From the NCBI GenBank assembly GCA_026874595.1, contig CM049306.1, positions 110,030,142 through 110,094,141 on the forward strand: DNA of 64,000 nt. The letters are read 5' to 3'. Every line of letters begins with the position of its first letter. The first letter of the stretch is position 1. The stretch is from Sipunculus nudus (lineage: Eukaryota > Annelida > Sipuncula > Golfingiida > Sipunculidae). The translations under genes and the position numbers were made by a program. The notes beneath the pieces were generated by a model. It had not been told where the DNA came from. It did no database searches and saw nothing but the letters and a program-made list of their open reading frames with translations. Below are positions 3,601 to 64,000 of the stretch, piece after piece.

Positions 3601-6600
3601 TCTGCATGTTTTCCGCCTGGAAAAAACATTCTCATTTACATATATATTCCAGTCAGCATGTAAAAAATGTACAAAACTTATCAAACCAGTTCTTCAGAAA
3701 TATTATTCTTCTCTCATAAAACCTGTACAGACCAGTCATGATTGGATTCAGTCTTCACATATGTGTGACCCATCACTTACAAAGAACCCTGCTGACCTTC
3801 ATGTCAGAAGGTCAAGATCACATATGAAGCTGAATATAACACAATACTCCTATTGTAAATGTTAGGCTAAAATGTCTTGCTAGTCAGCTGAGTGTCAGCT
3901 AGGTATTTTAGAAGATCTGTTGTCTTATTTCATGTGGACAACAGGCACACATTAAATATCCTTGGTCTTTCACTTAGAATTTAAAACAAAATCATTATTC
4001 ATTCAGGTCCGTTATTGGACAGAGGGAGAAGATTTGTACTCTGCAACTGAGTTTGATGCTGGCAAGAAGGCCCACTACGAATTGACCAATCTTCAGGCCA
4101 ACAAACTGTACAATTTGAGAGTGTTTGGTTACAGCCTGGGAGGGGAAGGCAAAATGAGCTCACCCACTGTACAGTTTGTCCTAGGTATGTTTATTACACC
4201 ACTGCTTAACTTGAATATGGAAAGAAAATAATCAGACATATAACATTCAAAGACATTCAAAAGGGCCACTTTAAGTATAAAAGAATCATTATTTCAAGAT
4301 AATATGGCAATGGGGATTTACATGTATTCTTGGAATCCTGATTTGATGTTTAAACCTGTTTTATTAGCTCATCTAAGCTATAGTTAAATCCATTGTCCAT
4401 CGTCCACCCATCCATATGTCTGTCCATTAGACTGGCATGTTTTGAAACTGTGAGACCTACTATCCTAAATTTGGCATACTGTTAGATGTCCCTCAAATCT
4501 CCTACCAAACCAAAAACTTGCTTACTGCAACTTCATTCCTTCAAGAAATTAAGGAAAAACTTCAATTTTCCATTAAAACACTATTATCATACTTTGGGAC
4601 TGCCTAATTTTAAAGCCACTTATCTGTTTTTCTTAATATTTACCATTTATATTTTTCTGTATATATCCATCCTATACTCATGCCAGTCTGTATTGTATAA
4701 TTTATTGAAGTTATGAGCCCAAACATAATGCACTTTGTCAAAAATCAGGAAAGATATTGAAGCTAGAGACTTTTATTTCAGGTATATAACTTTTTTTTAA
4801 TCAAGATTCAATTGTATATACAAAATTAGATCTGAATTTTGTAACTTTTTTAAGTTATTAGCATTCAAATAAAATCAGTACCTTAAATTTTGCCCATCTT
4901 TGACCATTGCATGTTTTTTCCTGTAAGTACCGTTGATTTAATTTTTTCAACATGTAAACACAAGTATTTAATCTGTTAAATCTGAAATTTGAAAATAAAA
5001 ACTAAAAAATTAGGCATTTTATTGAATATGTTAAGGCTGTGTTGTATTCACTAGCATTGTTCAGCTGCAGGCAGGCCACTTCTGGTCACTGGAGGTCAGC
5101 CATGCCAGGGTTCATGATTTGAAATGGTTCATTGGGGGAGATCCTCTGCTGTGACAAGCGTACAGTTATTTTCATATCAACTCCCCCCCCCCCCCCCCAC
5201 CCTCCCCACCAAGTGTTATGCAGTAATTTTTATTCTTTGCTCGTTATTTTCCTTAATTATAATACTGTTTCCACTCCAATATACAAAACTTCTTGAAATA
5301 GTAATTGAAGGAGTAATGCATAAGATGTTGTGGTAATGTAGCATTTATAAAGAAATCAGTTTTCTTTTTTAATAATTTTAACAAATAAAGTATAATTAAA
5401 CCCATTAGTATGCATAAATTGATAATATATGAGCCAAATTATGAATGAATCAAGGCACAATAAAAAATGTGAATTCTGAATCAAGTATTATTTCCAGATA
5501 TTTATTGTTTTGCAAATTTAAAGATATATTTTTTTTTTGTACCTGACAAGATTAAGATATATGATGATACAATTAAAGAGTATGAATCAACTTTTATGTT
5601 CAGATATACATGTTATATTAGAAATGTATAAAACTTAAACTTGAAAAAAAAAATTGGTGTTATAAAAAAATTGAGGATCTAATGCAAACATTTGTTCATT
5701 ATTTCCCTACCTCAGCAAAATAGGAGATAAAGTGATGGGCTTTGTATGTCTGCAAGTCTGTCCTTTTTTAAATATTCAGTAATTGTGAATGAACTTTTTT
5801 TAATCCTGTAAGCACTGTTAAATTTAGTGAATATTCTGTATTTATATACAGAGATGTTGTAACTCCCATCTTCACATCCCCCCCCCCTCACCACCACCAT
5901 CACCCGCCCCCCCCCCCCCCCCCCACACACCGCCACCACCAAGTCCTTGCAGCTGAGGACTAGGGACATAGTGATATTGCAACTATATACATTTTATAAA
6001 AATAAAAAATATATGATATTAAAAAATATATCTTATTGATCAAATGTGTTTAATGCTAAACTGTCAGCAATTTATCAAAAAGCCAACCAATGATCATGGT
6101 TATAGAATAGATCTTATGTTCACAAACTGCTCACATGCTTCAGTTTCAACATTGGGAAACACATGGTCAGGTCACAAAATATTATTTGCAACAATTTCTT
6201 TCATCAATACAAATCAGTCATATCAGTGTCCTATATTACCTCTTCCCCTCAGACTTTATCTCCATTTGATATTAATTTAGATTTTTACCTTCAAGGTCAA
6301 CTTCAGCTGTGACCCATAGGTCCCTTGTTTATTCAGATATCATGAACAGATTTGTGACTTTTTTATGCGACCCTTTAGTTCAGTCTGAAAATGTACAGAG
6401 CCTAAGTTTTCTTATTCCCCTAATGTTTGCTTCATTATGTTAAAAATCATATATAAAGTGAGAAATACTACTTGTTGCAGTAATAAAACTTGATAACATC
6501 TATAACAAAAGGTAATTGTACCTTGTTAAAACATAGAGATTCATGGAGGTAATATCATCTTTTTTCTCAAAGCATCATATCTTTTATAGTAATAAATTAT

Positions 6601-8275
6601 TTTGTCTTTTTAATTTCAGGATCCAACTGCACAATAATGAAAGGTAAGTCAAGAATCCTTTTCAATATGAGATAAGTGATGGCCCTAAGAAGTGCAGCAA
6701 CTACTCAAACACACTGAACCTGTCAAGGAAATCAGTTTTTTACTAACCAATCAAATCATGCCATAAAAAGCTGTTATCCAATCAGATTACGGCAAATATT
6801 ATGGTAATGTAAGTCACAACAGCTTTTGTAAAAAAAAAATTCTCCCTGTTAATACAGGTGGCATGTTTGCAAGACAGTCATACAGTAAAACATGCTTCTT
6901 TCAACAAAAATATTGGTGTGAATACAGCTTGGACTGTAGCATGGGATGTTTTATCTATTTTCTTAAAGGGGTTTCACCATTTTATAATTCTTAAAGAACA
7001 TTTCATTGCTCATGCTGTGCAGGAACAACACAAGAAATGATGTTGATTGATAAATATTTATTTTTCATGAGACAGGCCACAGCTTTCACCAAAAATGTCT
7101 CCTTCGTTTACATTTGATTTACTATGATTGCTGTACACCCATTTCTATATGATGTGTATGAACTTACAGAATACCCAAATGAAACTTACATCTGCACCTA
7201 TATCATGTTATTAAACTTTCAGAATACCCAGATAAAACATACACCTACACCTGTATCATGTTTATGAACTTTCAGAATACCCGGATAAAACATATAACTA
7301 CACCTGTATCATGTTTATGAACTTTCAGAATACCCAGATAAAACATATATCTACACCTGTATCATGTTTATGAACTTTCAGAATACCCGGATAAAACATA
7401 TATCTTCACCTGTATCATGTTTATGAACTTTCAGAATACCCGGATAAAACATATATCTACACCTGTATCATGTTTATGAACTTTCAGAATACCCGGATAA
7501 AACATATATCTACACCTGTATCATGTTTATGAACTTTCAGAATACCCGGATAAAACATATCTTCACCTGTATCATGTTATTAAACTTTCAGAATACCCAG
7601 ATAAAACAAACACCGACACCTGTATCATGTTTATGAACTTTCAGAATACCCAGATAAAACATACACCTACACCTGTATCATGTTTATGAACTTTCAGAAT
7701 ACCCAGATAAAACATACACCTACACCTGTATCATGTTTATGAATTTTCAGAATACCAAGATAAAACATACACCTACACCTGTATCATGTTTATGAACTTT
7801 CAGAATACCCAGATAAAACATATATCTACACCTGTATCATGTTTATGAACTTTCAGAATACCCGGATAAAACATATATCTACACCTGTATCATGTTTATG
7901 AACTTTCAGAATACCCGGATAAAACATATCTACACATGTATCATGTTATTAAACTTTCAGAATACCCAGATAAAACATACACCGACACCTGTATCATGTT
8001 TATGAACTTTCAGAATACCCAGATAAAACATACACCTACACCTGTATCATGTTTATGAACTTTCAGAATACCCAGATAAAACAAACACCTACACCTGATA
8101 ATGTTTAGGAACTTTACGAATAAAAAGATAAAACATACACCTACACCTGTATCATGTTTATGAACTTTCAGAATACCCGGATAAAACATACATCTACACC
8201 TGTGGATGTGGGGGCCTGCACATGGCAGCACTGACAGTACTCACTGCTCTGTGTTTACATCTTCTGTGGACGTAA
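483..8275 (+). CDS. Contactin-like GPI-anchored FN3 adhesion protein, 3' part of gene (5 coding exons)
   Basis: Joined coding segments are 483-672, 1198-1313, 4007-4184, 6620-6643 and 8172-8275. All introns are GT-AG and all phases agree, giving one open frame to a TAA at 8273-8275. The product has the second half of one fibronectin type III domain (starts INYWKQEGEDE, contains YYYVNVQVYNHAGFG), a complete FN3 domain (EAPQEVHVFPLDFTSIRVIW to GYSLGGEGKMSSP), a short linker and a hydrophobic tail (LTVLTALCLHLL) directly before the stop. FN3 repeats ending in a GPI-attachment signal are the hallmark of contactins, which are cell-surface neural and glial adhesion proteins with six Ig and four FN3 domains. 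The Ig domains and earlier FN3 domains would lie left of the window. Family assignment is inference from domain order and the GPI tail; another GPI-anchored FN3 protein is possible. Confidence 0.78.
673..1197 (+). other. Intron of contactin-like gene
   Basis: AT-rich intronic sequence with GTAAGT donor and ATTGCAG acceptor. I see no repeat array or conserved coding signal in it. Confidence 0.7.
1198..1313 (+). CDS. Contactin-like exon: first half of last FN3 domain
   Basis: The acceptor is ATTGCAG (ends 1197) and the donor is ATG|GTGAGG. It is 116 nt, completing a codon with two bases and leaving in phase 0. It encodes PQEAPQEVHVFPLDFTSIRV, then IWRGVD and EEPLQGYM. This is the standard FN3 opening: proline-rich linker, then the conserved tryptophan of strand B/C, then the GY pair before strand C. 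Confidence 0.85.
1314..4006 (+). other. Intron of contactin-like gene
   Basis: A 2.7-kb intron between two halves of one FN3 domain. It holds a decayed fragment of the interspersed family also seen near 53-54 kb (1734-2450). The stretch 2750-3870 contains open frames without recognisable domains, including a glycine-rich one near 2956-3309, which I do not call as genes. Confidence 0.65.
1734..2450 (+). repeat. Fragment of dispersed 'D' family (mollusc-type repeat)
   Basis: Phrases such as GATTGTGGATGCATTTTAAG, CATATGGATTTCAAACTTG and CCATCTTGTGCATATAGCTG recur here and in the element at 52574-54243. It is a degraded, endless partial copy inside the intron. Confidence 0.75.
4007..4184 (+). 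CDS. Contactin-like exon: second half of last FN3 domain
   Basis: The acceptor is ATTCAG (ends 4006) and the donor is CTAG|GTATGT. It is 178 nt, entering in phase 0 and leaving one base. It encodes VRYWTEGEDLYSATEF and then YELTNLQANKLYNLRVFGYS followed by GGEGKMSSP. The L-x-P/A-x-x-x-Y-x-x-R-V pattern and the terminal G-x-G-x-x-S-x-P are the conserved end of an FN3 domain. The junction GYM|VRYW joins smoothly to the preceding exon. Confidence 0.88.
4361..6330 (+). mobile_element. Interspersed non-coding element, family A, copy 1 (degraded)
   Basis: The left end is TTAGCTCATCTAAGCTATAG and the right end is CAGCTGTGACCCATAGGTCC followed by CTTGTTT. The body matches in order the copy at 21902-23828: a GAAACTGTGAGACCTA-type block, a poly-C tract, the phrase AAGTGTTATGCAGTAATT, and a block ending in ACACATGGTCAGGTCACAAA. 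I find no transposase or reverse transcriptase frame, so it looks non-autonomous. It lies in the contactin-like intron between 4184 and 6620. Confidence 0.75.
6620..6643 (+). CDS. Contactin-like 24-nt microexon (linker before GPI signal)
   Basis: TTTAATTTCAG precedes this segment and GTAAGTC follows it, both strong consensus sites. It is 24 nt and starts and ends in phase 1, encoding G-S-N-C-T-I-M-K with an N-C-T glycosylation sequon. Because 24 is a multiple of three and the phases of the flanking exons match, skipping it would also give an intact frame (VL|EYPDK). Its assignment rests on splice sites and phase alone, since the peptide is too short for family recognition. Confidence 0.65.
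7150..8171 (+). repeat. 53-bp tandem array of splice-acceptor/exon-start units
   Basis: About 20 copies. Each unit contains TTATGAACTTTCAG followed by AATACCCRGATAAAACATA and a CACCTGTATCATG tail, which is the acceptor and first 32 bases of the terminal coding exon at 8172. The unit is 53 bp, so the frame shifts by two at each copy. One unit near 8115 has lost its AG. The last unit flows into the real exon. Confidence 0.95.
8172..8275 (+). CDS. Contactin-like terminal coding exon: GPI-anchor signal and stop
   Basis: The acceptor is TGAACTTTCAG (ends 8171). Read in the phase set by the microexon it encodes EYPDKTYIYT, then the small-residue stretch CGCGG, then a hydrophobic stretch LHMAALTVLTALCLHLLWT ending at TAA 8273-8275. 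A small-residue omega region, short spacer and hydrophobic terminus is the classic GPI transamidase signal. The first 32 bases of this exon are the part amplified in the 53-bp array immediately upstream. A possible donor (CACAG|GTAATT) lies 10 nt after the stop. Confidence 0.82.
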
Positions 8276-10100
8276 CCTTCACAGGTAATTTTCATAATTA
8301 TCATATTTAAATATATATTTCAAAGTTTAAATTCTTGTATATTCAAATTTCAGACTGACCAAAATGGTCCTTAAAGAAACTGGTTAAAGTCAATTTTAGC
8401 CCATGCTCTTGGCAAGTTATAAAAATCCATGAGAAATCATGGTACATCGTCAAAGTGAATGTTAATCATCGCACCTGAGCCTTGTTGAGCAGTCTCTAGA
8501 CTACACTAAAACAAACTCTCATCTTTCAAGTGAATAGCTGTTATCTGTAGACTTCTGTTCTTAATTAATGTAGGCTTTCTTAATGAATACTTTTATTAAT
8601 ATTTCAGTATTCAATAACAGATCTGTAGGACTTTCAGTTGATTATAATATTGATAATATAGACAAACAAATGGAATCTTGTACAATGTATGTGCATGTTT
8701 GGTATCCAATATTGATTATTGAGATGCCCTATTTTGTGTACCCAAGGTTAAGGTTATACTTATTACATGTAGTTAAATAAAGTAACAAGACGAGTTATTA
8801 GTTTTAGATAAATTTGCTTTATTTCATGTTCCTAATGAAGCATTGTTAGGTTTCTAAAAAACTATTCTCCTTATATGTTGTTTCTTCTTTGTTACAGGCG
8901 AGTACTGAGCAAATGAATATTATCTAAGTAATAGAATAATTTAAAACAATTCAATGTAACTAGCCCAAGTGTGACCCAGACTATACTTTTACTTTGTTAC
9001 AATGGAAAAATAAAAATTTTTGGAACTGCTTGTTTTCCTGTGAGGGTTTATTTTGGGCTCAACTGGCACCAAGAGCAATTGCTTCTTATCTGCCAGTGTT
9101 GATCCCTGGATATCAGGACACCACTGATGCCACACTTTTCTAGTTACATGCAGGGGACTAGGCCAGTGTTTATTGTTTCAGGGTTTGTACATGGAAAAGA
9201 TTTTGATTAAGTGTAATTGATATTAATTTATAACACCTTTTATAAATTTATAAAGCATGCCAGTCGTCCTTTATTGCTTTTAAATTTCCTTAAAATAATC
9301 TGTTTATTAATATAAGGGAAAATGGGTAACCAACATAATCCTCAATGTTGGAACACATGAATAATTCATTAATCATATAGGTTTTTGTATATATTTATAT
9401 GTACAGTATCTATATATGTGTATCAAGGTTAAAAGCTTAATTCTTTTTTTTTCAGATGACAGAAAGTTAAAGATTTGAAACATCATAGAAATATATGACA
9501 CTGAAGTATTCACAACATTTAGATACACGACTTAATAATCTGGATACAACAGGATGCACCATGACCTGGTATAACCATAATTAGCTTTAACAGTGCAGCA
9601 AACAAACAAGTGTTTTAAAATCTCCCACTGTATGCATATAGATAAGAAAAAGTTATTTTTAAAATTGTCCATATTATGATCAGGTGTGAATTTTAGCCAC
9701 AAAGAGACTGGTTTTAGTAACATTATTTACACTTTATAATAATAATCGTGATGTTTTACACTTATCCAAATGAACTTGGTAAAAATACGTTTTAGACTTT
9801 AAGTATGCTGACACATCAGGTCATATTTCCAGCTTTTTGATACTCAAGATTGTTATATATCATGTTTTTATGTTTTATATATTGTAAATATTTTGTGAAT
9901 GTATATAAAATAATCCACACATTATGCAGCAAACATATATTGTTCTAATTGACAGTACTGTGACTCTGCTGAAGGGCACTGTGCTGAAATGATCAATGTA
10001 CAAAACATTCCTGATGATCAAATCGATTTGAGAATTATTTTAATGACATTAATAACTGATAATTATATTTACCTTTTGTAATAAACATTTTTGTATAAAC
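8276..10100 (+). other. Probable 3' UTR region of contactin-like gene, with candidate poly(A) signals
   Basis: Ten bases after the stop is CACAG|GTAATT, a good donor. TTGTTACAG ending at 8898 is a good acceptor, followed by a stop-rich segment with AATAAA at 9009-9014. Another acceptor-like tract ends near 9456, and AATAAA occurs again at 10080-10085. The transcript end cannot be chosen without RNA data. The rest is AT-rich, with no coding signal seen. Confidence 0.45.
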
Positions 10101-10162: not shown

Positions 10163-12074
10163 TGTCAGTTATCAGTGATTTATGTAGACTGGACCTCGCA
10201 CTGCATTACAGCCATTTATATAGCAGTCATTTATGTAGACTGGACCTCGCTCTGCATTACGGCCATTTATATAGCAGTGATTTATGTAGACTGGACCTCA
10301 CTCTGCATTACAGCCATTTATATAGCAGTCATTTATGTAGACTGGACCTCGCTCTGCATAACAGCCATTTATATAGCAGTCATTTATGTAGACTGGACCT
10401 CGCTCTGCATTACGGCCATTTATATAGCAGTCATTTATGTAGACTGGACCTCGCTCTGCATTATACAGCCATTTATATAGCAGTCATTTATGTAGACTGG
10501 ACCTCGCTCTGCATAACAGCCATTTATATAGCAGTCATTTATGTAGACTGGACCTCGCACTGCATTACAGCCATTTATATAGCAGTCATTTATGTAGACT
10601 GGACCTCGCACTGCATTACAGCCATTTATATAGCAGTGATTTATGTAGACTGGACCTCGCTCTGCATTACAGCCATTTATATAGCAGTCATTTATGTAGA
10701 CTGGACCTCGCTCTGCATAACAGCCATTTATATAGCAGTCATTTATGTAGACTGGACCTCGCACTGCATTACAGCCATTTATATTGCAGTGATTTATGTA
10801 GACTGGACCTCCCTCTGTATAACAGCCATTTATATAGCAGTCATTTATGTAGACTGGACCTCGCACTGCATTACAGCTATTTATATAGCAGTCATTTATG
10901 TAGACTGGACCTCGCACTCATTACAGCCATTTATATAGCAGTCATTTATGTAGACTGGACCTCGCTCTGCATAACAGTCATTTATATAGCAGTCATTTAT
11001 GTAGACTGGACCTCGCACTGCATTACAGCCATTTATATAGCAGTGATTTATGTAGACTGGACCTCGCTCTGCATTACAGCCATTTATATAGCAGTCATTT
11101 ATGTAGACTGGACCTCGCTCTGCATTATACAGCCATTTATATAGCAGTCATTTATGTAGACTGGACTTGCTCTGCATAACAGCCATTTATATAGCAGTCA
11201 TTTATGTAGACTGGACCTCCCTCTGCATTACAGCCATTTATATAGCAGTCATTTATGTAGACTGGACCTCGCTCTGCATTACAGCCGTTTATATAGCAGT
11301 CATTTATGTAGACTGGACCTCGCTCTGCATTACGGCCATTTATATAGCAGTCATTTATGTAGACTGGACCTTGCTCTGCATTATACAGCCATTTATATAG
11401 CAGTCATTTATGTAGACTGGACCTCGCTCTGCATTATACAGCCATTTATATAGCAGTCATTTATGTAGACTGGACCTCGCTCTGCAATACAGCCATTTAT
11501 ATAACAGTCATTTATGTAGACTGGACCTCGCTCTGCATTACAGCCATTTATATAGCAGTTATTTATGTAGACTGGTCCTCGCTCTGCATTATACAGCCAT
11601 TTATATAGCAGTCATTTATGTAGACTGGACCTCGCTCTGCATTACGGCCATTTATATAGCAGTGATTTATGTAGACTGGACCTCGCTCTGCATTATACAG
11701 CCATAAATATAGCAGTCATTTATGTAGACTGGATCTCGCTCTGCATTACAGCCATTTATATAGCAGTCATTTATGTAGACTGGACCTCGCTCTGCATTAC
11801 AGCCATTTATAGCAGTGATTTATGTAGACTGGACCTCACTCTGCATTACAGCCATTTATAGCAGTCATTTATGTAGACTGGACCTCGCTCTGCATTACAG
11901 CCATTTATATAGCAGTGATTTATGTAGACTGGACCTCACTCTGCATTACAGCCATTTATAGCAGTCATTTATGTAGACTGGACCTCGCTCTCCATTACAG
12001 CCATTTATATAGCAGTCATTTATGTAGACTGGACCTCGCTCTGCATTACAGCCATTAATTTATATAGCAGTGAT
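10163..12074 (+). repeat. 51-bp tandem array, copy 1
   Basis: About 37 units containing ATTTATGTAGACTGGACCTC and CATTTATATAGCAGT. Unit variants (GCTCTGCATTACAG, GCACTGCATTACAG, GCATTATACAG) form a recognisable order. Because 51 is a multiple of three, stop-free frames run for up to 160 codons on both strands; these are by-products of periodicity. Confidence 0.95.
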
Positions 12075-12759
12075 AGGCCTACTTGTGTCATGACAAAAGT
12101 CATACAGGGGTATGCAATGCAACAGCCATTCATCCTATTGCATCAATATCGTGGGAAACAGCCAATAATTTTAACAATAAGCTATGAGTGATGAATTATC
12201 ACAAAATTATTACTCACATGCCAAAGTGAAAATCCGTCTCTAACCGCTCATTTCATGTGTTGCATACAAGATATCCTGTAACCTTTGTTGGCCATGCTTG
12301 TATTCATGGTCTGAAAAATTCATCAAACGATCGCTGGTTTATGCTGAGTGACTGCATCCTTGCAGGTAATGAGGTGTTGTCAAAATTGATGAAAATATTT
12401 GCCTTGCACCAAGCCTTACAGAATGCTAGTAGGTTTCATGTTAAATTAAGCAAGGCATTCTGATATCTCTATAGAGTCTCCTATGTCAGCAGTCTGAAAT
12501 ATCCCCAGACTAGACCGGGCTTTTACAGATAGACATGACATTTATAGTAGATTATAACTGGAGGTACATACAGGATTTGAGAAAAATTGGGGGGGGGGGG
12601 GGGGGGGGAGGGGAGGGCAAGGGAGGGGATTTCACTTCACATCTTGTGTGAAATTCAGACTGCAGTTGTGCAATCCAGGGTGGTTTAAATACATTATGAT
12701 GCAATTGTCAACTCTATGTTTTTTCTTTATTCATATACTTACCACTCTAAATTCAACCC
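12075..12759 (+). other. Unique spacer between 51-bp and 28-bp arrays, copy 1
   Basis: About 685 bp of non-repetitive DNA with a poly-G tract near 12589-12609 followed by GGGG-A-GGGG runs. A 68-codon frame at 12257-12463 is altered by a small indel in the duplicate copy, so I do not regard it as a gene. Confidence 0.8.
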
Positions 12760-14885
12760 TGATTGGGATATGACACTGTCTCAGTGATGATCGGGATATG
12801 ACCCTGTCTCAGGGATGATTGGGATATGACCCTGTCTCAGTGATGATTGGGATATGACCCTGTCTCAGGGATGATTGGGATATGACCCTGTCTCAGGGAT
12901 GATTGGGATATGACCCTGTCTCAGGGATGATTGGGATATGACCCTGTCTCAGGGATGATTGGGATATGACACTGTCTCAGTGATGATTGGGATATGACCC
13001 TGTCTCAGTGATGATTGGGATATGACCCTGTCTCAGGTATGATTGGGATATGACCCTGTCTCTGGGATGAATGGGATATGACCCTGTCTCAGGGATGATT
13101 GGGATATGACCCTGTCTCAGGGATGATTGGGATATGACCCTGTCTTGGATGATTGGGATATGACCCTGTCTCAGGGATGATTGGGATATGACCCTGTCTC
13201 AGTGATGATTGGGATATGACCCTGTCTCAGGGATGATTGGGATATGACCCTGTCTCAGGGATGATTTGGATATGACCCTGTCTCAGTGATAATTGGGAAA
13301 TGACCCTGTCTCAGTGATGATTGGGATATGACCCTGTCTCAGTGATGATTGGGATATGACCCTGTCTCAGTGATGATTGGGATATGACCCTGTCTCAGGG
13401 ATGATTGGGATATGACCCTGTCTAAGGGATGATTGGAATATGACCCTGTCTCAGTGATGATTGGGATATGACCCTGTCTCAGTGATGATTGGGATATGAC
13501 CCTGTCTCAGTGATGATTGGGATATGACCCTGTCTCAGGGATGATTGGGATATGACCCTGCATCAGGGGTGATTGGGATATGACCCTGTCTCAGTGATGA
13601 TTGGGATATGACCCAATCTCAGGGATGATTGGGATATGACCCTGTCTCTGTGATGATTGGGATATGACCCTGTCTCTGTGATGTTTGGGATATGACCCTG
13701 TCTCGGTGATGATTGGGATATGACCCTGTCTCAGGGATGATTGGGATATGACCCTGTCTCAGTGATAATTGGGATATGACCCTGTCTCTGTGATGATTGG
13801 GATATGACCCTGTCTCTGTGATGTTTGGGATATGACCCTGTCTCGGTGATGATTTGGATATGACCCTGTCTCAGGGATGATTGGGATATGACCCTGTCTC
13901 AGTGATGATTAGGATATGACCCTGTCTCAGTGATAATTGGGATATGACCCTGTCTCTGTGATGATTGGGATATGACCCTGTCTCGGTGATGTTTGGGATA
14001 TGACCCTGTCTCGGTGATGATTGGGATATGACCCTGTCTCAGGGATGATTGGGACATGACCCTGTCTAAGGGATGATTGGAATATGACCCTGTCTCAGTG
14101 ATGATTGGGATATGACCCTGTCTCAGTGATGATTAGGATATGACCCTGTCTCAGTGATCATTGGGATATGACCCTGTCTCTGTGATGATTGGGATATGAC
14201 CCTGTCTCTGTGATGTTTGGGATATGACCCTGTCTCGGTGATGATTGGGATATGACCCTGTCTCAGGGATGATTGGGATATGACCCTGTCTAAGGGATGA
14301 TTGGAATATGACCCTGTCTCAGTGATGATTGGGATATGACCCTGTCTCAGTGATGATTAGGATATGACCCTGTCTCAGTTATGATTGGGATATGACCCTG
14401 TCTCAGGGATAATTGGGATATGACCCTGTCAAAGGGATGATTGGAATATGACCCTGTCTCAGTGATGATTGGGATATGACCCTGTCTCTGTGATGATTAG
14501 GATATGACCCTGTCTCAGTGATAATTGGGATATGACCCTGTCTCTGTGATGATTGGGATATGACCCTGTCTCTGTGATGTTTGGGTTATGACCCTGTCTC
14601 GGTGATGATTGGGATATGACCCTGTCTCAGGGATGATTGGGATATGACCCTGTCTCAGTGATAATTGGGATATGACCCTGTCTCTGTGATGATTGGGATA
14701 TGACCCTGTCTCTGTGATGTTTGGGATATGACCCTGTCTCGGTGATGATTGGGATATGACCCTGTCTCAGGGATGATTGGGATATGACCCTGCATCAGGG
14801 GTGATTGGGATATGACCCTGTCTCAGTGATGATTGGGATATGACCCAATCTCAGGGATGATTGAGATATGACCCTGTCTCAGGAG
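12760..14885 (+). repeat. 28-bp tandem array, copy 1
   Basis: Roughly 76 units of the type GATTGGGATATGACCCTGTC plus TCAGTGAT. Marker variants (CATCAGGGGTG, CTCGGTGATG, TAAGGGATG) recur in the same order at longer distances, e.g. CATCAGGGGTG at 13561 and about 14792, which shows higher-order repeats near 1.23 kb (about 44 units). Confidence 0.95.
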
Positions 14886-16685
14886 CAGTGATTTATGTAG
14901 ACTGGACCTCACTCTGCATTACAGCCATTTATATAGCAGTCATTTATGTAGACTGGACCTCGCTCTGCATAACAGCCATTTATATAGCAGTCATTTATGT
15001 AGACTGGACCTCGCTCTGCATTACGGCCATTTATATAGCAGTCATTTATGTAGACTGGACCTCGCTCTGCATTATACAGCCATTTATATAGCAGTCATTT
15101 ATGTAGACTGGACCTCGCTCTGCATAACAGCCATTTATATAGCAGTCATTTATGTAGACTGGACCTCGCACTGCATTACAGCCATTTATATAGCAGTCAT
15201 TTATGTAGACTGGACCTCGCACTGCATTACAGCCATTTATATAGCAGTGATTTATGTAGACTGGACCTCGCTCTGCATTACAGCCATTTATATAGCAGTC
15301 ATTTATGTAGACTGGACCTCGCTCTGCATAACAGCCATTTATATAGCAGTCATTTATGTAGACTGGACCTCGCACTGCATTACAGCCATTTATATTGCAG
15401 TGATTTATGTAGACTGGACCTCCCTCTGTATAACAGCCATTTATATAGCAGTCATTTATGTAGACTGGACCTCGCACTGCATTACAGCTATTTATATAGC
15501 AGTCATTTATGTAGACTGGACCTCGCACTCATTACAGCCATTTATATAGCAGTCATTTATGTAGACTGGACCTCGCTCTGCATAACAGTCATTTATATAG
15601 CAGTCATTTATGTAGACTGGACCTCGCACTGCATTACAGCCATTTATATAGCAGTGATTTATGTAGACTGGACCTCGCTCTGCATTACAGCCATTTATAT
15701 AGCAGTCATTTATGTAGACTGGACCTCGCTCTGCATTATACAGCCATTTATATAGCAGTCATTTATGTAGACTGGACTTGCTCTGCATAACAGCCATTTA
15801 TATAGCAGTCATTTATGTAGACTGGACCTCCCTCTGCATTACAGCCATTTATATAGCAGTCATTTATGTAGACTGGACCTCGCTCTGCATTACAGCCGTT
15901 TATATAGCAGTCATTTATGTAGACTGGACCTCGCTCTGCATTACGGCCATTTATATAGCAGTCATTTATGTAGACTGGACCTTGCTCTGCATTATACAGC
16001 CATTTATATAGCAGTCATTTATGTAGACTGGACCTCGCTCTGCATTATACAGCCATTTATATAGCAGTCATTTATGTAGACTGGACCTCGCTCTGCAATA
16101 CAGCCATTTATATAACAGTCATTTATGTAGACTGGACCTCGCTCTGCATTACAGCCATTTATATAGCAGTTATTTATGTAGACTGGTCCTCGCTCTGCAT
16201 TATACAGCCATTTATATAGCAGTCATTTATGTAGACTGGACCTCGCTCTGCATTACGGCCATTTATATAGCAGTGATTTATGTAGACTGGACCTCGCTCT
16301 GCATTATACAGCCATAAATATAGCAGTCATTTATGTAGACTGGATCTCGCTCTGCATTACAGCCATTTATATAGCAGTCATTTATGTAGACTGGACCTCG
16401 CTCTGCATTACAGCCATTTATAGCAGTGATTTATGTAGACTGGACCTCACTCTGCATTACAGCCATTTATAGCAGTCATTTATGTAGACTGGACCTCGCT
16501 CTGCATTACAGCCATTTATATAGCAGTGATTTATGTAGACTGGACCTCACTCTGCATTACAGCCATTTATAGCAGTCATTTATGTAGACTGGACCTCGCT
16601 CTCCATTACAGCCATTTATATAGCAGTCATTTATGTAGACTGGACCTCGCTCTGCATTACAGCCATTAATTTATATAGCAGTGAT
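14886..16685 (+). repeat. 51-bp tandem array, copy 2
   Basis: Repeats the array at 10275-12074 unit for unit, including rare variants such as TATTGCAGTGATTTATG and a CCTCCCTCTGTATAAC unit, at an offset of 4611 bp. It starts abruptly inside a 28-bp unit (CTGTCTCAGGA|GCAGTG). Confidence 0.95.
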
Positions 16686-17369
16686 AGGCCTACTTGTGTC
16701 ATGACAAAAGTCATACAGGGGTATGCAATGCAACAGCCATTCATCCTATTGCATCAATATCGTGGGAAACAGCCAATAATTTTAACAATAAGCTATGAGT
16801 GATGAATTATCACAAAATTATTACTCACATGCCAAAGTGAAAATCCGTCTCTAACCGCTCATTTCATGTGTTGCATACAAGATATCCTGTAACCTTTGTT
16901 GGCCATGCTTGTATTCATGGTCTGAAAAATTCATCAAACGATTGGTCTGGTTTATGCTGAGTGACTGCATCCTTGCAGGTAATGAGGTGTTGTCAAAATT
17001 GATGAAAATATTTGCCTTGCACCAAGCCTTACAGAATGCTAGTAGGTTTCATGTTAAATTAAGCAAGGCATTCTGATATCTCTATAGAGTCTCCTATGTC
17101 AGCAGTCTGAAATATCCCCAGACTAGACCGGGCTTTTACAGATAGACATGACATTTATAGTAGATTATAACTGGAGGTACATACAGGATTTGAGAAAAAT
17201 TTGGGGGGGGGGGGGGGAGGGGAGGGCAAGGGAGGGGATTTCACTTCACATCTTGTGTGAAATTCAGACTGCAGTTGTGCAATCCAGGGTGGTTTAAATA
17301 CATTATGATGCAATTGTCAACTCTATGTTTTTTCTTTATTCATATACTTACCACTCTAAATTCAACCCT
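16686..17369 (+). other. Unique spacer, copy 2
   Basis: Near-identical to 12075-12759. Differences I see are a 3-bp change (GATCGCTGG versus GATTGGTCTGG) and a shorter poly-G tract. Confidence 0.9.
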
Positions 17370-20338
17370 GATTGGGATATGACACTGTCTCAGTGATGAT
17401 CGGGATATGACCCTGTCTCAGGGATGATTGGGATATGACCCTGTCTCAGTGATGATTGGGATATGACCCTGTCTCAGGGATGATTGGGATATGACCCTGT
17501 CTCAGGGATGATTGGGATATGACCCTGTCTCAGGGATGATTGGGATATGACCCTGTCTCAGGGATGATTGGGATATGACACTGTCTCAGTGATGATTGGG
17601 ATATGACCCTGTCTCAGTGATGATTGGGATATGACCCTGTCTCAGGTATGATTGGGATATGACCCTGTCTCTGGGATGAATGGGATATGACCCTGTCTCA
17701 GGGATGATTGGGATATGACCCTGTCTCAGGGATGATTGGGATATGACCCTGTCTTGGATGATTGGGATATGACCCTGTCTCAGGGATGATTGGGATATGA
17801 CCCTGTCTCAGTGATGATTGGGATATGACCCTGTCTCAGGGATGATTGGGATATGACCCTGTCTCAGGGATGATTTGGATATGACCCTGTCTCAGTGATA
17901 ATTGGGAAATGACCCTGTCTCAGTGATGATTGGGATATGACCCTGTCTCAGTGATGATTGGGATATGACCCTGTCTCAGTGATGATTGGGATATGACCCT
18001 GTCTCAGGGATGATTGGGATATGACCCTGTCTAAGGGATGATTGGAATATGACCCTGTCTCAGTGATGATTGGGATATGACCCTGTCTCAGTGATGATTG
18101 GGATATGACCCTGTCTCAGTGATGATTGGGATATGACCCTGTCTCAGGGATGATTGGGATATGACCCTGCATCAGGGGTGATTGGGATATGACCCTGTCT
18201 CAGTGATGATTGGGATATGACCCAATCTCAGGGATGATTGGGATATGACCCTGTCTCTGTGATGATTGGGATATGACCCTGTCTCTGTGATGTTTGGGAT
18301 ATGACCCTGTCTCGGTGATGATTGGGATATGACCCTGTCTCAGGGATGATTGGGATATGACCCTGTCTCAGTGATAATTGGGATATGACCCTGTCTCTGT
18401 GATGATTGGGATATGACCCTGTCTCTGTGATGTTTGGGATATGACCCTGTCTCGGTGATGATTTGGATATGACCCTGTCTCAGGGATGATTGGGATATGA
18501 CCCTGTCTCAGTGATGATTAGGATATGACCCTGTCTCAGTGATAATTGGGATATGACCCTGTCTCTGTGATGATTGGGATATGACCCTGTCTCGGTGATG
18601 TTTGGGATATGACCCTGTCTCGGTGATGATTGGGATATGACCCTGTCTCAGGGATGATTGGGACATGACCCTGTCTAAGGGATGATTGGAATATGACCCT
18701 GTCTCAGTGATGATTGGGATATGACCCTGTCTCAGTGATGATTAGGATATGACCCTGTCTCAGTGATCATTGGGATATGACCCTGTCTCTGTGATGATTG
18801 GGATATGACCCTGTCTCTGTGATGTTTGGGATATGACCCTGTCTCGGTGATGATTGGGATATGACCCTGTCTCAGGGATGATTGGGATATGACCCTGTCT
18901 AAGGGATGATTGGAATATGACCCTGTCTCAGTGATGATTGGGATATGACCCTGTCTCAGTGATGATTAGGATATGACCCTGTCTCAGTTATGATTGGGAT
19001 ATGACCCTGTCTCAGGGATAATTGGGATATGACCCTGTCAAAGGTATGATTGGAATATGACCCTGTCTCAGTGATGATTGGGATATGACCCTGTCTCTGT
19101 GATGATTAGGATATGACCCTGTCTCAGTGATAATTGGGATATGACCCTGTCTCTGTGATGATTGGGATATGACCCTGTCTCTGTGATGTTTGGGTTATGA
19201 CCCTGTCTCGGTGATGATTGGGATATGACCCTGTCTCAGGGATGATTGGGATATGACCCTGTCTCAGTGATAATTGGGATATGACCCTGTCTCTGTGATG
19301 ATTGGGATATGACCCTGTCTCTGTGATGTTTGGGATATGACCCTGTCTCGGTGATGATTGGGATATGACCCTGTCTCAGGGATGATTGGGATATGACCCT
19401 GCATCAGGGGTGATTGGGATATGACCCTGTCTCAGTGATGATTGGGATATGACCCAATCTCAGGGATGATTGAGATATGACCCTGTCTCAGGGATGATTG
19501 GGATATGACCCTGTCTCAGTGATGATTGGGATATGACCCTGTCTCAGGGATGATTGGGGAAATGACCCTGTCTCAGTGATGATTGGGATATGACCCTGTC
19601 TCAGTGATGATTGGGATATGACCCTGTCTCAGTGATGATTTGGATATGACCCTGTCTCAGTGATGATTAGGATATGACCCTGTCTCAGTGAAAATTGGGA
19701 TATGACCCTGTCTCTGTGATGATTAGGATATGACCCTGTCTCAGTGATAATTGGGATATGACCCTGTCTCTGTGATGATTGGGATATGACCCTGTCTCTG
19801 TGATGTTTGGGATATGACCCTGTCTCGGTGATGATTGGGATATGACCCTGTCTCAGGGATGATTGGGATATGACCCTGCATCAGGGGTGATTGGGATATG
19901 ACCCTGTCTCAGTGATGATTGGGATATGACCCAATCTCAGGGATGATTGGGATATGACCCTGTCTCAGGGATGATTGGGATATGACCCTGTCTCAGTGAT
20001 GATTGGGATATGACCCTGTCTCAGGGATGATTGGGGAAATGACCCTGTCTCAGTGATGATTAGGATATGACCCTGTCTCAGTGATGATTGGGATATGACC
20101 CTGTCTCAGTGATGATTTGGATATGACCCTGTCTCAGTGATGATGGGGATATGACCCTGTCTCAGTGATGATTGGTATATGACCCTGTCTCAGTGATGAT
20201 TGGGATATGACCCTGTCTCAGTGATGATTGGGATATGACCCTGCCTCTGTGATGATTGAGATATGACCCTGTCTCAGTGATGATTGGGATATGACCCTGT
20301 CTCAGTGATGATTGGGATATGACCCTGTCTCAGTGATG
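17370..20338 (+). repeat. 28-bp tandem array, copy 2 and extension
   Basis: Repeats the first 28-bp array to about 19494 and then carries on for another 0.85 kb. Markers such as CATCAGGGGTG occur at about 18173, 19402 and 19877, showing further internal duplication (17 and 44 units). Confidence 0.95.
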
Positions 20339-20344
20339 AAATTA

Positions 20345-41958: not shown

Positions 41959-44900
41959 GTGTGTGTCCGGTTAGGAGACCACGTGTTTTCTTGGGAAACT
42001 GAAACCGCAGTGTCACTGCTGACACTACTGCTGACTAAGCTTTCAAATCAACATGGATGCACCTGGTACCGCATTAGAACAGACAACATGGCCTTGATCT
42101 TATTGGTATATACAGTGCTGGATAGGAGAACAATGAACTGAGCCCCTGTTTCGTAGGCCAGGACAAGTCACAGCATAAACTTATCTCTGTCGGATAAAGA
42201 TGTTGCACAGTTATTTGTGTAGATGAATCCTTAGCAAACCAGTATACTTACTCTTGTGACAAATACGAGCCCCGCCAGGAACCCACAGCAGCAGTACGCC
42301 AGGACAACCAGAGCCCGCTTCTTCTTGACTCTCATCTGGGGAAACCAGTCTAACAGAACGGTTATTATTGACTCCATGGCGACGAACTGAAATACAGGAA
42401 TCTGTATTACTTTAAATATGATCTAATTCCAAACAAGCCCCCGCCTTACTGCTGATGGCCCCTCTCAACTCTACCTACGTGATAAGGACTCTGAGGACAG
42501 AGCTCCCCCACTAATTTAGAATTGTGCTAATTTTGGCATAAAAACTTAAACAACGTACAATTCAGTGTGCAGAAGAGAGTTAATCTAGTCTGAATTTCAC
42601 ATAACTTGACATTTGTGTAATAAAAACTATGCGTATAATTAATATTTTATTACAATTGTAAAAAAGGAGTTTTGTTTTAAACAAATCACATTATATATAT
42701 ATATATATATTATATATATATATCATTAGGTAAAACATTATACAATACAGGAAACAGCATTTAGAATTGTGAGACAAGTTGGTTTACGTGTGAATGCTGG
42801 GATAGAGAGCACCTGTTGACCCCTACCTGACTGTCAAGACCGAGTAACAAGAGCATGAAGAAAAACATGGCCGACCACAATTGTGACAGCGGCATCTGGG
42901 TGACGGCCTTGGGGTAGGCTATGAAGGTCAAACCAGGGCCTAAAACGACAGGTGTTAATAATACCTAGCTCATCAATCTGACATTTATTTATTGATATTT
43001 ACACTTATCATAAAGACCTTATTCAGTTTGTTGCTCATTTGTTTTAGCCTGGTTAATATATTATTAATCACACATTTGTGTGTGTATGTGTGTGTGTGTG
43101 TGTGTGTAAAACGATGAAAATTTAAAGTTATACACTTCATTCGTTAAACTGTAAGCCACACAGTATTGGTTTTGCTCCTGATTAATATCAAAGTTGGTGT
43201 TGCTGTCAATTAAACAACCATCTTAATCTATGATGAACCACCTGATGACATGTTTTAATCGTTCCATGGTTTAATCGATACTGAAAAAAAAAATAATAAT
43301 AATAAATAAAAAACCTCTCAAACCTTTTTCGGCGACCATGTCTATGCTTGTGCCTTGCAGATTTGCCATAAACCCAAGAGTGGTAAAAATGGCGAATCCC
43401 GCGTACATGCTTGTCCCGCTGTTTATCAGACAAATGATGGAGCAGTCCCTGAAAAAAAGTTTCATATCTAGGAGACCTGTAGCAAGGAGACACAGAGCCA
43501 GGTTACACTTAACCAGGTGACACGTAGCGATGAGACACGTAGCCAGGTGACAGGTAAAAAGGAACACGTAGCCAGGTGAAACGTAGCAAGGAAACACGTG
43601 GCTAGGTGACACGTAACATGGAAACACGTAGCCAGGTGACACGTAGCCAGGTGACAGGTAAAAAGGAACACGTAGCCAGGTGAAACGTAGCAAGGAAACA
43701 CGTGGCTAGGTGACACGTAACATGGAAACACGTAGCCAGGTGACACGTTACAAGCTAGGAGACACGTAGCCAGGAGACACGTAACAAGGAAACACGTCGA
43801 CAGGTGACACTGAACAAGGAGACACGTAGCCAGGTGACACGTAGCAAGGAAACACGTAGCCAGGTGACACGTTACAAGGAGACACGTATCCAGGTGACAC
43901 GTAGTAAGGAGACCCGTGGCACGGTGACAATTAACAAGGAGACACGTAGCCAGGTGACACGTAACAAGGAAACACCAGGCACGGTGACACGTAACGGGGA
44001 GACACGTAGCAAGGAGACACCTAGCCAGGTGAAACGTAACAAGGAAACACATAGCCAGGTGTCACGTAACAAAGAAAAACGTAGCCAGGAGACACGTAAC
44101 AAGGAGACGAGTAATAAATTCTGGTTAAGATTTAATGCCATGACAGAATTTCAAGAAAATATTTTCTTTTCTGCTTGTACATCTGGTTCAATGCATTATT
44201 ATAAGTGCTGACGAGTGGTGCAAGTTTGTATTAATAAGAAAATCGGCCTTTTCAGGAAGTTACCCGTTATATTTTTTTTATTCGCATACTTTGGACCTAC
44301 TTGTAGAAATTCTTTTGGAATTTATTGTAACTTCCCAATGCAGTCAGTGCTCCGTTTGCTACAGCATACGAGTAGAAGATCTGGGTACCAGCGTCTATCC
44401 ACACCTGAAAATCAGACATATTAAAAGGATGGAGATTAACATACTAATTCCAAACATTAAAGTATCCTGTTGCTAGTCCCTCTTGATTATAAATGTAAGA
44501 ACGTATTAGTATTACCACTGTAACAGCACAGTGTGCATTAGCGGAGTTTGTGAGCGTCACCGCAGCTTCTGAATACACAGATAGCGTAGGTATAAACGTA
44601 GTGAAGAGGGTAATGTAGTCCGTTAAAATATGATAAGAATGATTAAACTTATTATAAAAATTACATAAGCATTGATGTAATTATGGTAATGTTATCACAG
44701 AGTATTTTGCAAGCATGGCATGTGCAATGTAAACAGAAAGTATTTCCTTGATATGTAACAAATTTTGATTTTAAAGTTTGACAGTTGAGACACCTAGTCC
44801 CAACCATCCCACATAGCCCATCAAGAAGATTTCCTTTTTAATAGAAACGATCTCTGGCGGAAGGTGATTAAGAAGATGAAGATTAGCATACTATAAAACA

Positions 44901-47900
44901 AAAATTTTATAAACAGTGAAACATGTTTCGTGTTGGTGGTCCCGCTTGCTTATAATGCAAGAACGTATAAGTAATACCATGTTGAAGAAAGTAACATTGT
45001 GTCAAGTTCGATGCTATTTTGATTACGTTACATTTAACAAGTAGAATGTAAATACAAATATACCTGACTGTCAGCAAGTCTAGAAAAATCGGGCTTTAGG
45101 TAATATATGACGCCGTCTATTGCTCCTGGGAGAGTGGCCCCTCGTATCAACAAACACGTCAGCACCACGTAGGGAAAGGTGGCCGTAAAATACATCACCT
45201 GAAACAGTACTAGTACATGAGGGAAAAACAGAGCACCAGTACATGAGGAGAAACAGGGCATCAGTAATGAGGAGAAACAGAGCACCAGTACATGAGGAGA
45301 AACAGAGCACCAGTATATGAGGAGAAACAGAGCACCAGTGCATGTGGAGAAACAGAGCACCAGTAAATAAGGGAAAACAGAGCACCAGTGCATGAGGAGA
45401 AACAGAGCACCAGTATATGATTAGAAACAGAGCACCAGTACATGAGGAGAAACAGAGCACCAATACATGAGGAGAAACAGAGCACCAGTGCATGTGGAGA
45501 AACAGAGCACCAGTACATGAGGGAAAAACAGAGCACCAGTGCATGAGGAGAAACAGAGCACCAGTATATGAGGAGAAACAGAGCACCAGTACATGAGGAG
45601 AAACAGAGCACCAGTACATGAGGGAAAAACAGAGCACCAGTGCATGAGGAGAAACAGAGCACCAGTACATGAGGAGAAACAGAGCACCAGTACATGAGGA
45701 GAAACAGGGCACAAGTAATGAGGAGAAACAGAGCACCAGTACATGAGGGAAAAACAGAGCACCAGTGCATGAGGAGAAACAGAGCACCAGTACATGAGGA
45801 GAAACAGAGCTCCAGTACATGAGGAGAAACAGGGCACAAGTAATGAGGAGAAACAGAGCACCAGTACATGAAGGAAAAACAGAGCACCAGTACATGAGGA
45901 GAAACAGAGCACCAGTAATGAGGAGAAACAGAGTACCAGTACATGAGGGAAAAACAGAGCACCAGTGCATGAGGAGAAACAGAGCACAAGTAATGAGGAG
46001 AAACAGGGCACCAGTACATGAGGAGAAACAGGGCACCAGTAATGAGGAGAAACAGAGCACCAGTACATGAGGGAAAAACAGAGCACCAATACATGAGGAG
46101 AAACAGAGCACCAGTAATGAGGAGAAACAGAGTACCAGTACATGAGGGAAAAACAGAGCACCAGTACATGAGAGAAACAGGGCACCAGTAATGAGGAGAA
46201 ACAGAGCACCAGTACATGAAGAGAAACAGAGCACCAGTACATGAGGAGAAACAGGGCACCAGTGCATGTGGAGAAACAGAGCACCAGTACATGAGGGAAA
46301 AACAGAGCACCAGTGCATGAGGAGAAACAGAGCACCAGTATATGAGGAGAAACAGAGCACCAGTACATGAGGAGAAACAGAGCACCAGTACATGAAAAGA
46401 AACAGAGTACCAGTACATGATGGAAAAACAGAGCACCAGTACATGAGGAGAAACAGGGCACCAGTCATGAGGAGAAACAGAGTACCAGTACATGAGGGAA
46501 AAACAGAGCACCAGTACATGAGGAGAAACAGGGCACAAGTAATGAGGAGAAAAAGAGTGCCAGTACATGAAGGAAAAACAAAGCACCAGTACATGAGGAG
46601 AAACAGGGCACCAGTAATAAGGAGAAACAGAGCAACAGTACATGAGGAGTAACAGAGCACCAGTACATGAGGAGAAACAGAGCACCAGTGCATGTGGAGA
46701 AACAGAGCACCAGTACATGAGGGAAAAACAGAGCACCAGTGCATGAGGAGAAACAGAGCACCAGTATATGAGGAGAAACAGAGCACCAGTACATGAGGAG
46801 AAACAGAGCACCAGTACATGAGGGAAAAACAGAGCACCAGTGCATGAGGAGAAACAGAGCACCAGTACATGAGGAGAAACAGAGCACCAGTACATGAGGG
46901 AAAAACAGAGCACCAGTGCATGAGGAGAAACAGAGCACCAGTACAATAGGGAAAAACAGAGCACCAGTCATGAGGAGAAACAGAGCATCAGAACATGAGG
47001 AGAAACAGAGCCCCAGTACATGAGGAGAAACAGAGCACCAGTACATGAGGAGAAACAGAGCACCAGTATATGAGGAGAAACAGAGCACTAGTACATGAGG
47101 AAAAACAGAACACCAGTACATAAGGAGAAACAGAGCACCAGTACATGAGGAGAAACAGAGCACCAGTACATGAGGGGACAGAGCACCAGAACATGAGGGA
47201 AAAACAGAGCACCAGTGCATGAGGAGAAACAGAGCACCAGTACAATAGGGAAAAACAGAGCACCAGTCATGAGGAGAAACAGAGCATCAGTACATGAGGA
47301 GAAACAGAGCCCCAGTACATGAGGAGAAACAGAGCACCAGTACATGAGGAGAAACAGAGCACCAGTAAATGAAGAGAAACAGAGCACTAGTACATGAGGA
47401 AAAACAGAACACCAGTACATAAGGAGAAACAGAGCACCAGTACATGAGGGAAAAACAGAGCACCAGTGCATGAGGAGAAACAGAGCACCAGTATATGAGG
47501 AGAAACAGAGCACCAGTACATGAGGACAACAGAGCACCAGTACATGAGGAGAAACAGAGCACCAGTATATGAGGAGAAACAGAGCACTAGTACATGAGGA
47601 AAAACAGAACACCAGTACATAAGGAGAAACAGAGCACCAGTACATGAGGGAAAAACAGAGCACCAGTGCATGAGGAGAAACAGAGCACCAGTATATGAGG
47701 AGAAACAGAGCACCAGTACATGAGGAGAAACAGAGCACCAGTACATGAGGGAAAAACAGAGCACCAGTGCATGAGGAGAAACAGAGCACCAGTACATGAG
47801 GAGAAACAGAGCACCAGTACATGAGGAGAAACAGGGCACAAGTAATGAGGAGAAACAGAGCACCAGTACATGAGGGAAAAACAGAGCACCAGTGCATGAG

Positions 47901-62400: not shown

Positions 62401-64000
62401 AAATATCAACAAATATGTCTGCTCATCCATGAAGATGAAGGTGATTAGGAAATATCAACAAATATGTCTGCTCGTCCAAGAAGCTGAAGGTGATTAGGAA
62501 AAATCAACAAATATGTCTGCTCATCCATGAAGATGAAGGTGATTAGGAAATATCAACAAATATGTCTGCTCATCCATGAAGATGAAGGTGATAAGGAAAT
62601 ATCAACAAATATGTCTGCTCATCCATGAAGCTGAAGGTGATTAGGAAATATCAACAAATATGTCTGCTCATCCATGAAGATGAAGGTGATTAGGAAATAT
62701 CAACAAATATGTCTGCTCATCCGTGAAGATGAAGGTGATTAGGAAATATCAACAAATATGTCTGCTCATCCAAGAAGCTGAAGGTGATTAGGAAATATCA
62801 ACAAATATGTCTGCTCATCCAAGAAGATGAAGATGATTAGGAAATATCAACAAATATGTCTGCTCATCCAGGAAGCTGAAGGTGATTAGGAAAAATCAAC
62901 AAATATGTCTGCTCATCCATGAAGATGAAGGTGATTAGGAAATATCAACAAATATGTCTGCTCATCCATGAAGATGAAGCTGAATAGGAAATATCAACAA
63001 ATATGTCTGCTCATCCAGGTGGATGAAGGTGATCAGGAAATATCATCAAATATGTCTTCTCATCAATGAAGATGATGGTGATTAGGAAATATCAACAAAT
63101 ATGTCTGCTCATCCAGGAAGATGAAGGTGATTAGGAAATATCAACAAATATGTCTGCTCATCCAGGAAGCTGAAGGTGATCAGGAAATATCAACAAATAT
63201 GTCTGCTCATCCATGAAGCTAAAGGTGATTAGGAAATATCAACAAATAAGTCTGCTCATCCAAGAAGCTGAAGGTGATTAGGAAATATCAACAAATATGT
63301 CTGCTCATCCATGAAGCTGAAGGTGATTAGGAAATATCAACAAATATGTCTGCTCATCCATGAAGCTGAAGGTGATTAGGAAATATCAACAAATATGACT
63401 GCTCATCCAAGAAGATGAAGGTGATTAGGAAATGTCAACAAATATGTCTGCTCATCCAAGAGGATGAAGGTGATTAGGAAATATCAACAAATATGTCTGC
63501 TCATCCATGAAGATGAAGGTGATTAGGAAATATCAACAAATATGTTTGCTCATCCATGAAGCTGAAGGTGATAAGGAAATATCAACAAATATGTCTGCTC
63601 ATCCATGAAGTTGACGGTGATTAGGAAATATCAACAAATATGTTTGCTCATCCCTGAAGATGAAGGTGATTAGGAAATATCAACAAATATGTTTGCTCAT
63701 CAATGAAGCTGAAGGTGATTAGAAAATATCAACAAATATGTTTGCTCATCCATGAAGATGAAGGTGATTAGGAAATATCAACAAATATGTCTGCTCAGCC
63801 ATGAAAATGAAGGTGATTAGGAAATATCAATAAATATGTCTGCTCATCCATGAAGATGAAGGTGATTAGGAAATATCAACAAATATGTCTGCTCATCCAT
63901 GAAGATGAAGGTGATTAGGAAATATCAATAAATATGTCTGCTCATCCATGAAGATGAAGGTGATTAGGAAATATCAACAATTATGTCTGCTCATCCATGA
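56466..64000 (+). repeat. 49-bp satellite array running off the right end
   Basis: About 154 units with GGTGATTAGGAAATATCAAC, AAATATGTCTGCTCATCCAT and GAAGATGAA. Variants GTTTGCTCATCCATGAAGC, CTACTCATCAATGAAGC, GTTGACGG and GATAAGG...TTTGTTCATCC are ordered in blocks. The GTTTGTTCATCC marker recurs at about 245 or 392 bp (5 or 8 units), showing higher-order structure. The 57800-58560 stretch is almost pure CTACTCATCAATGAAGC units. It is presumably in the 5' intron of the SLC6 gene, since the N-terminal exons must lie further right. Confidence 0.95.

Follow-up and report, generated by a model that had tools for sequence, protein, structure and literature searches.

The contactin locus

The window, a 64,000-nucleotide stretch of Sipunculus nudus DNA, begins inside a gene that the first-pass annotation of this DNA had taken for a contactin, and database comparison bore this out. 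The plus-strand exons in the window, at 483-672 (half of an FN3 domain, INYWKQEG...), 1198-1313 and 4007-4184 (first and second halves of the last FN3 domain), 6620-6643 (a 24-nt microexon), and 8172-8275 (the coding part of the last coding exon, which probably runs to 8284), share one frame, and skipping the microexon from exon 4007-4184 keeps that frame. When the window exons and the two exons before them were compared with sequences of solved structures (PDB phmmer), the closest were Contactin-3 (1.3e-31) and Contactin-2 (4.9e-30), and the C-terminal part of the gene matched fn3 in Pfam at 5.2e-28. We followed the gene through the 90 kb upstream of the window and identified 20 exons; others, including the first, may have been missed. 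Four joined upstream exons give a C-type lectin domain (Lectin_C, 1.6e-7, over the Pfam cut-off). For the Ig domains, Ig3 matched Ig_2 at 2.4e-11 (over the cut-off) and Ig2 matched Ig_3 at 1.3e-5 (below the cut-off); further Ig-domain exons between lectin and FN3 were recognized by eye, the sixth Ig in part. Arthropod contactins carry an N-terminal C-type lectin domain, and we annotate the Sipunculus gene as a contactin with a C-type lectin domain. A contactin paralogue, which would make a natural control, lies at C1:87971848-87976183 (87.97 Mb), with 44-54% identity in four matched stretches.

Other features of the region are as follows. An SLC6-type (sodium:neurotransmitter symporter) gene lies on the minus strand at 42240-45198 of the window (Pfam SNF, 1.7e-44 and 1.3e-17). 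Two arrays stop just short of sites in this gene, one (25 bp x 148, 45212-48902) 13 bp from its TM5 exon and the other (15 bp, 43470-44108) 21 bp from a likely acceptor. A 51-bp array and, after it, a 28-bp array fill 10173-14882, and the pair recurs at 14884-20339 with unchanged consensus units, so that 10173-20339 looks like a block duplication of two arrays. A 49-bp array of >150 copies with 94% matches occupies 56468-64000 and runs to the window end. In L002-L003, some 81 to 75 kb upstream of the window, there are several long open frames that resemble retrotransposon fragments by eye.

A 53-bp array repeats the acceptor of the last coding exon

Between the microexon and the body of the last coding exon lies a plus-strand array at 7148-8203, resolved by Tandem Repeats Finder (TRF) as 20.0 copies of a 53-bp period with 91% matches and with a higher-order period of 369 bp, equal to seven units. 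When the units were cut at the acceptor, each comprised 22 bp of intron 3' end with its acceptor and 31 bp of exon start, in agreement with the earlier claim that the array consists of the acceptor plus the start of the last coding exon. Each unit thus spans an intron end and an exon start, as do the tandem intron/exon-boundary copies that were given the name "mirages" in amphioxus Adh3 (via PMC3087553). The acceptor AG is intact in 19 of the 20 units, namely, the true site at 8172 and 18 decoys; the array is therefore real and has 20 units, but the "about twenty" decoys of the first-pass annotation number 18. Decoy exon starts lie at 7170, 7223, 7276, 7329, 7382, 7435, 7488, 7541, 7592, 7645, 7698, 7751, 7804, 7857, 7910, 7961, 8014, and 8067. 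They are followed by the unit at 8119, which has lost its AG (ACG where the others have CAG), and by the true exon start. Unit spacing departs from 53 bp in two steps of 51 bp and one of 52.

From -20 to +3, 13 of the 18 decoys are letter-identical to the true site, the exceptions being 7170, 7223, 7592, 7751, and 7961. Divergence from the true copy is 17% for each of the end units (7170 and 8119) and 2-15% for the 17 units between them, and the mean pairwise difference among these internal units is 9%. The seven-unit period, together with the greater divergence of the end units, fits ordinary minisatellite turnover. Among the internal units, variation affects 4 of the 22 columns on the intron side and 13 of the 32 on the exon side; the second figure is inflated by the gap-free alignment of two internal units that are short by 2 bp. 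These counts do not particularly support selection preserving the decoy AGs; since turnover is concerted, column variation says little about selection. In a DNA search of the 1.43-Gb genome, with very common words skipped, the 53-bp array matched one place only, the array itself. Its structure is far from chance.

Seven arrays span exon boundaries in the same gene

The first-pass annotation had pointed to two junction amplifications in one gene as unusual. The situation is indeed unusual, but two is an undercount: seven of the 11 minisatellites in the contactin gene span a boundary (three acceptor arrays and four donor arrays). We counted over 70 kb, from -61777 (numbering from the window start) to the GPI exon, and took in minisatellites with a period of 15-200, at least 3 copies, and a score of at least 100, merging overlapping rows. 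The 22-bp array at -61777, just before the first identified exon, is included among the 11; we left out one row of two copies (-57549 to -57407, 68 bp x 2.1) and two rows with long periods (280 and 342 bp), all three clear of the identified exons. We also excluded arrays that abut an acceptor and stop short of containing it, namely, a 69-bp x 99 array and, in the SLC6 gene, the 25-bp x 148 and 15-bp arrays.

Besides the array at the last coding exon, the boundary-spanning arrays are a 53-bp acceptor array at lectin exon 2 (-60039 to -59740), four donor arrays (30 bp x 29, -56083 to -55214; 46 bp x 8, -41634 to -41259; 50 bp x 25, -39235 to -37974; and 37 bp x 25, -5067 to -4156), and an acceptor array on the plus strand at -3053 to 539 (starting at L010:6947). 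The last of these is the second junction array of the first-pass annotation, which had placed it at 1-539 of the window; it is there, and by TRF it extends 3 kb upstream as 117 bp x 30.7, with exon 483-672 as the true copy that closes it. Each of these six arrays contains both the intron and the exon side of a boundary. Counting sites with an intact core and at most three mismatches from the true one, and including the true one, they hold 4, 26, 8, 22, 9, and 30 sites in the order given; in the 37-bp array just 9 of about 25 units qualify. The seven arrays together contain 118 sites, or about 110 decoys once the 7 true sites are subtracted. In all seven the copy adjoining the full exon is the real boundary, and the additional ones are intronic. 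The array-bearing exons join their neighbors in frame to give lectin, Ig, or FN3 stretches or, for the 53-bp x 20 array, the contactin C-terminus.

Two further observations concern exon edges in this gene. The 69-bp x 99 array (6.8 kb; L005-L006, from 54885 to 48046 bp upstream of the window) stops 17 bp short of the acceptor of E4, the final lectin exon, and leaves the boundary outside. At the Ig3a exon, 39.4 kb upstream of the window, a donor array lies downstream and an apparent two-copy repeat of the acceptor region, seen by eye, lies upstream, so both edges of this exon seem to be affected.

Were the original units placed at random in the gene, an expected 0.24 of the 11 arrays would cross any of the 39 identified boundaries, against the seven observed (P = 3.5e-10; this and the following P values assume independent random placement of original units). 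Without the two window arrays, five of nine span a boundary, against 0.16 expected (P = 1.6e-7), and when the chance was doubled to allow for missed exons, P was still 4e-8. Random passive origin does not explain this concentration of arrays on boundaries.

Minisatellite context and the question of seeding at junctions

The locus is a minisatellite hotspot. The minisatellite share is 39% in the window and 17.5% across the upstream 90 kb, whereas two groups of 30 comparison loci have 1.2% and 1.6%; because these loci are centred on exons, their values are biased low. The window end lies 818,966 bases (~0.8 Mb) from the end of contig C1. Minisatellites crowd near chromosome ends.

An excess at boundaries of the size found here, inside and outside the window, would be expected if tandem duplication were actively seeded at splice junctions in this lineage, for example, co-transcriptionally at exon edges. 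Such seeding is compatible with a mirage and differs from passive expansion in the origin that it proposes; we consider it possible but doubtful. To the boundary excess can be added two arrays found among 60 comparison loci, of which 30 were FN3 loci (mostly from few genes) and 30 were Ion_trans (ion-channel) loci, all scanned by TRF and by self-comparison of matched exons with 60-bp flanks. Both are 3-copy donor arrays in FN3 loci (L013 and L027), and that in L013 has GT in two of its three copies. Other self-comparison matches in the FN3 loci, mostly 56-76% identical over long distances, were taken as neighboring FN3 domains. On the other side, the same two methods detected no boundary arrays at the matched exons and 60-bp flanks of the 30 Ion_trans loci, and the evidence for seeding is dominated by one gene.

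A genome-wide test set splice words in tandem against the same words reversed. Three words were drawn up (TTTTCAGG, AGGTAAGT, and AGGTGAGT), and counts were obtained from TTTTCAGG and AGGTAAGT. By occurrences in tandem, the words exceeded their reversed forms (1334 versus 244 for TTTTCAGG and 1032 versus 662 for AGGTAAGT), and single long arrays account for many of the listed matches of both. Counted by array, there was no enrichment of TTTTCAGG, with 8 clusters versus 6 for the reversed word among the matches listed on C1 and C2; outside arrays this word is itself about twice as common as its reverse (29 versus 15 in 308,585 unmasked bases). Nor was there an excess of AGGTAAGT clusters in the first 7.57 Mb of C1 (1 versus 3 for the control), the stretch over which the match lists of word and control, each limited to 100 places, are both complete. 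Because there is no excess by cluster and single long arrays inflate the occurrences, we do not claim genome-wide enrichment, and the clustering of arrays at boundaries is claimed for the contactin gene only.

Decoy readings and a predicted 3'-UTR intron

Spliced from microexon 6620-6643, the true site at 8172 reads EYPDKTYIYTCGCGGLHMAALTVLTALCLHLLWT followed by a stop codon. The result is a GPI-signal-like tail in which small residues precede a hydrophobic C-terminal stretch (mean hydropathy of the best 12 residues, 2.3). Joined to the same microexon, each decoy gives EYPDKTY... or a close variant of it. The earlier expectation of a stop after about 30 codons describes most of these readings, 12 of the 18 stopping at 32 codons and one (8014) at 31, but not the four that stop at 49 or the one (8067) that stops at 10. 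As had been proposed, a hydrophobic C-terminus is lost: all 18 decoy readings stop without the tail of the true exon (hydropathy computed for 4 of the 18).

Nine nucleotides past the true stop codon there is a good donor (8284/8285), and a pyrimidine-rich acceptor follows at 8897/8898. These sites delimit a plus-strand 3'-UTR intron at 8285-8897 (CACAG/GTAATT ... TTGTTACAG/GCGAG), predicted from sequence only, with an AATAAA beyond it at 9009 and a second AATAAA inside it at 8776. If 8285-8897 is spliced, the last junction would follow the true stop by 9 nt and the 18 decoy stops by 176-1017 nt. The usual rule for nonsense-mediated decay is 50-55 nt, so that with this intron decay of decoy transcripts would be expected. 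If the AATAAA at 8776 were used instead, the transcript would end inside the predicted intron, and decoy transcripts could escape decay. If the predicted 3'-UTR intron is real, the sequence rather favors decay of decoy transcripts over a stable secreted product.

These features bear on a functional reading of the array, in which decoys would be used, either constitutively at a low level or in a regulated manner, to produce a secreted contactin lacking the GPI anchor. Every decoy retains its AG and most match the true site, each decoy reading would remove the hydrophobic tail, and a transcript end at 8776 would put the decoy stop in the terminal exon; in addition, human acceptors lean upstream overall, according to the available text of one study (PMC9225289). 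We nevertheless judge a secreted isoform unlikely and, given the predicted 3'-UTR intron with its distant decoy stops, have not adopted it as the main reading. Regular splicing has been reported despite the amphioxus mirages, in the part of that work available (PMC3087553), and a special role for the 53-bp x 20 array is not needed because six other arrays lie at lectin, Ig, or FN3 exon edges of the same gene.

That the 53-bp array was created or inflated by mis-assembly is very improbable: tandem arrays are error prone in assembly, and haplotype 1 of amphioxus BflGb6 appears aberrantly assembled in the genome draft (PMC3087553, available part), but the units here differ from each other in an ordered pattern, the gene contains seven arrays with different units, and the 110.9-Mb length of contig C1 suggests a long-read assembly. 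The copy number of the array in the assembly may be wrong.

Origin of the array and choice of the splice site

We think it quite probable that the 53-bp array is a passively expanded mirage in which the copy farthest downstream, on the full exon, serves as the working acceptor and is picked by exon context, with decoy use being rare and the resulting transcripts being decayed. Under this model, the array would have been founded when a stretch straddling the intron/exon boundary of contactin's last coding exon was duplicated in tandem, and would then have expanded into the intron, partly via duplicated seven-unit blocks, leaving 8172 as the sole copy attached to the full exon. The minisatellite-rich setting, the six sister arrays, and the amphioxus precedent speak for this reading; the concentration of arrays on boundaries speaks against a purely random beginning. 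Local splice-site strength cannot discriminate between the true site and 13 of the 18 decoys, because these are identical to 8172 from -20 to +3. The decoys lack the exon body and are farther from the downstream donor or poly(A) site; exon context is thus the likely discriminator, and we infer that the spliceosome most likely reads the exon body, the downstream 3'-UTR donor, or the poly(A) site. Decoy use would probably be rare, and decoy transcripts would probably be decayed.

Data on human splice sites agree with this in part. In one study, the closest of alternative sites across the exon is favored when introns are long (PMC9225289, abstract), and 3' splice sites lean upstream overall, a lean that is reported to be significantly reduced in exon-definition mode (section 9). 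With such an upstream lean, some use of decoys is quite possible.

The gene amounts to a ready-made competition experiment: a single intron holds, ahead of the true acceptor, 13 others that match it letter for letter from -20 to +3. Some leakage to decoys is possible and could be measured, as could the extent to which exon context governs site choice. A broader proposition, which we offer tentatively and think less likely than not to hold, is that in this lineage splice junctions are favored birthplaces of tandem duplications, and that large genes in regions rich in minisatellites consequently gather arrays of decoy donors and acceptors. If it holds, the contactin gene, with its seven arrays and about 110 decoys, is a natural test of how the spliceosome discriminates among exact copies.

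Comparison with known boundary repeats

The sources covered describe repeats at exon boundaries in amphioxus and, in a different form, in human segmental duplications; further reports may exist elsewhere. In human segmental-duplication genes, internal tandem repeats that sit on exon-intron boundaries can give rise to splice sites or shift them (PMC2812944, available part). Those repeats are described as altering exons or forming novel introns of young paralogues, whereas the contactin arrays are intronic decoys within one gene. There is also a resemblance to polyubiquitin UBC, in which a tandem array of splice sites lies within a repeat and stochastic use is reported (PMC10809524, available part). 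The UBC sites, however, are AGGT motifs at the borders of coding monomers and serve as donor and acceptor, while each contactin array repeats one boundary type and is intronic.

The closest parallels are the amphioxus mirages, as far as the available portions of the two reports describe them. BflGb6 has copies of an intron end plus exon start, and in BflGb9 the 3' boundary of exon 2 has been copied; many of the globin boundary copies carry AG or GT, reverse transcription-PCR suggests that splicing is undisturbed, and inner units are homogenized with the cluster edges excluded (PMC3087553). PGBD5 and troponin C are further cases (PMC3902484). The contactin arrays share with Adh3, BflGb6, BflGb9, PGBD5, and troponin C the minisatellite-like copies of boundaries, the involvement of both 5' and 3' boundaries, and the retention of many splice signals. 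As in amphioxus, the authentic copy remains with the gene's exon and edge units lie outside homogenization. There are differences as well: BflGb6 has 6 and 3 copies in its two haplotypes, against 20 and about 31 in two of the contactin acceptor arrays, and here seven arrays occur in one gene of a 1.43-Gb genome. The 53-bp array thus reads as a further case of the mirage kind in an unusually rich form, and the contactin gene extends a phenomenon described in amphioxus to seven cases in a single gene, at acceptors and donors alike.
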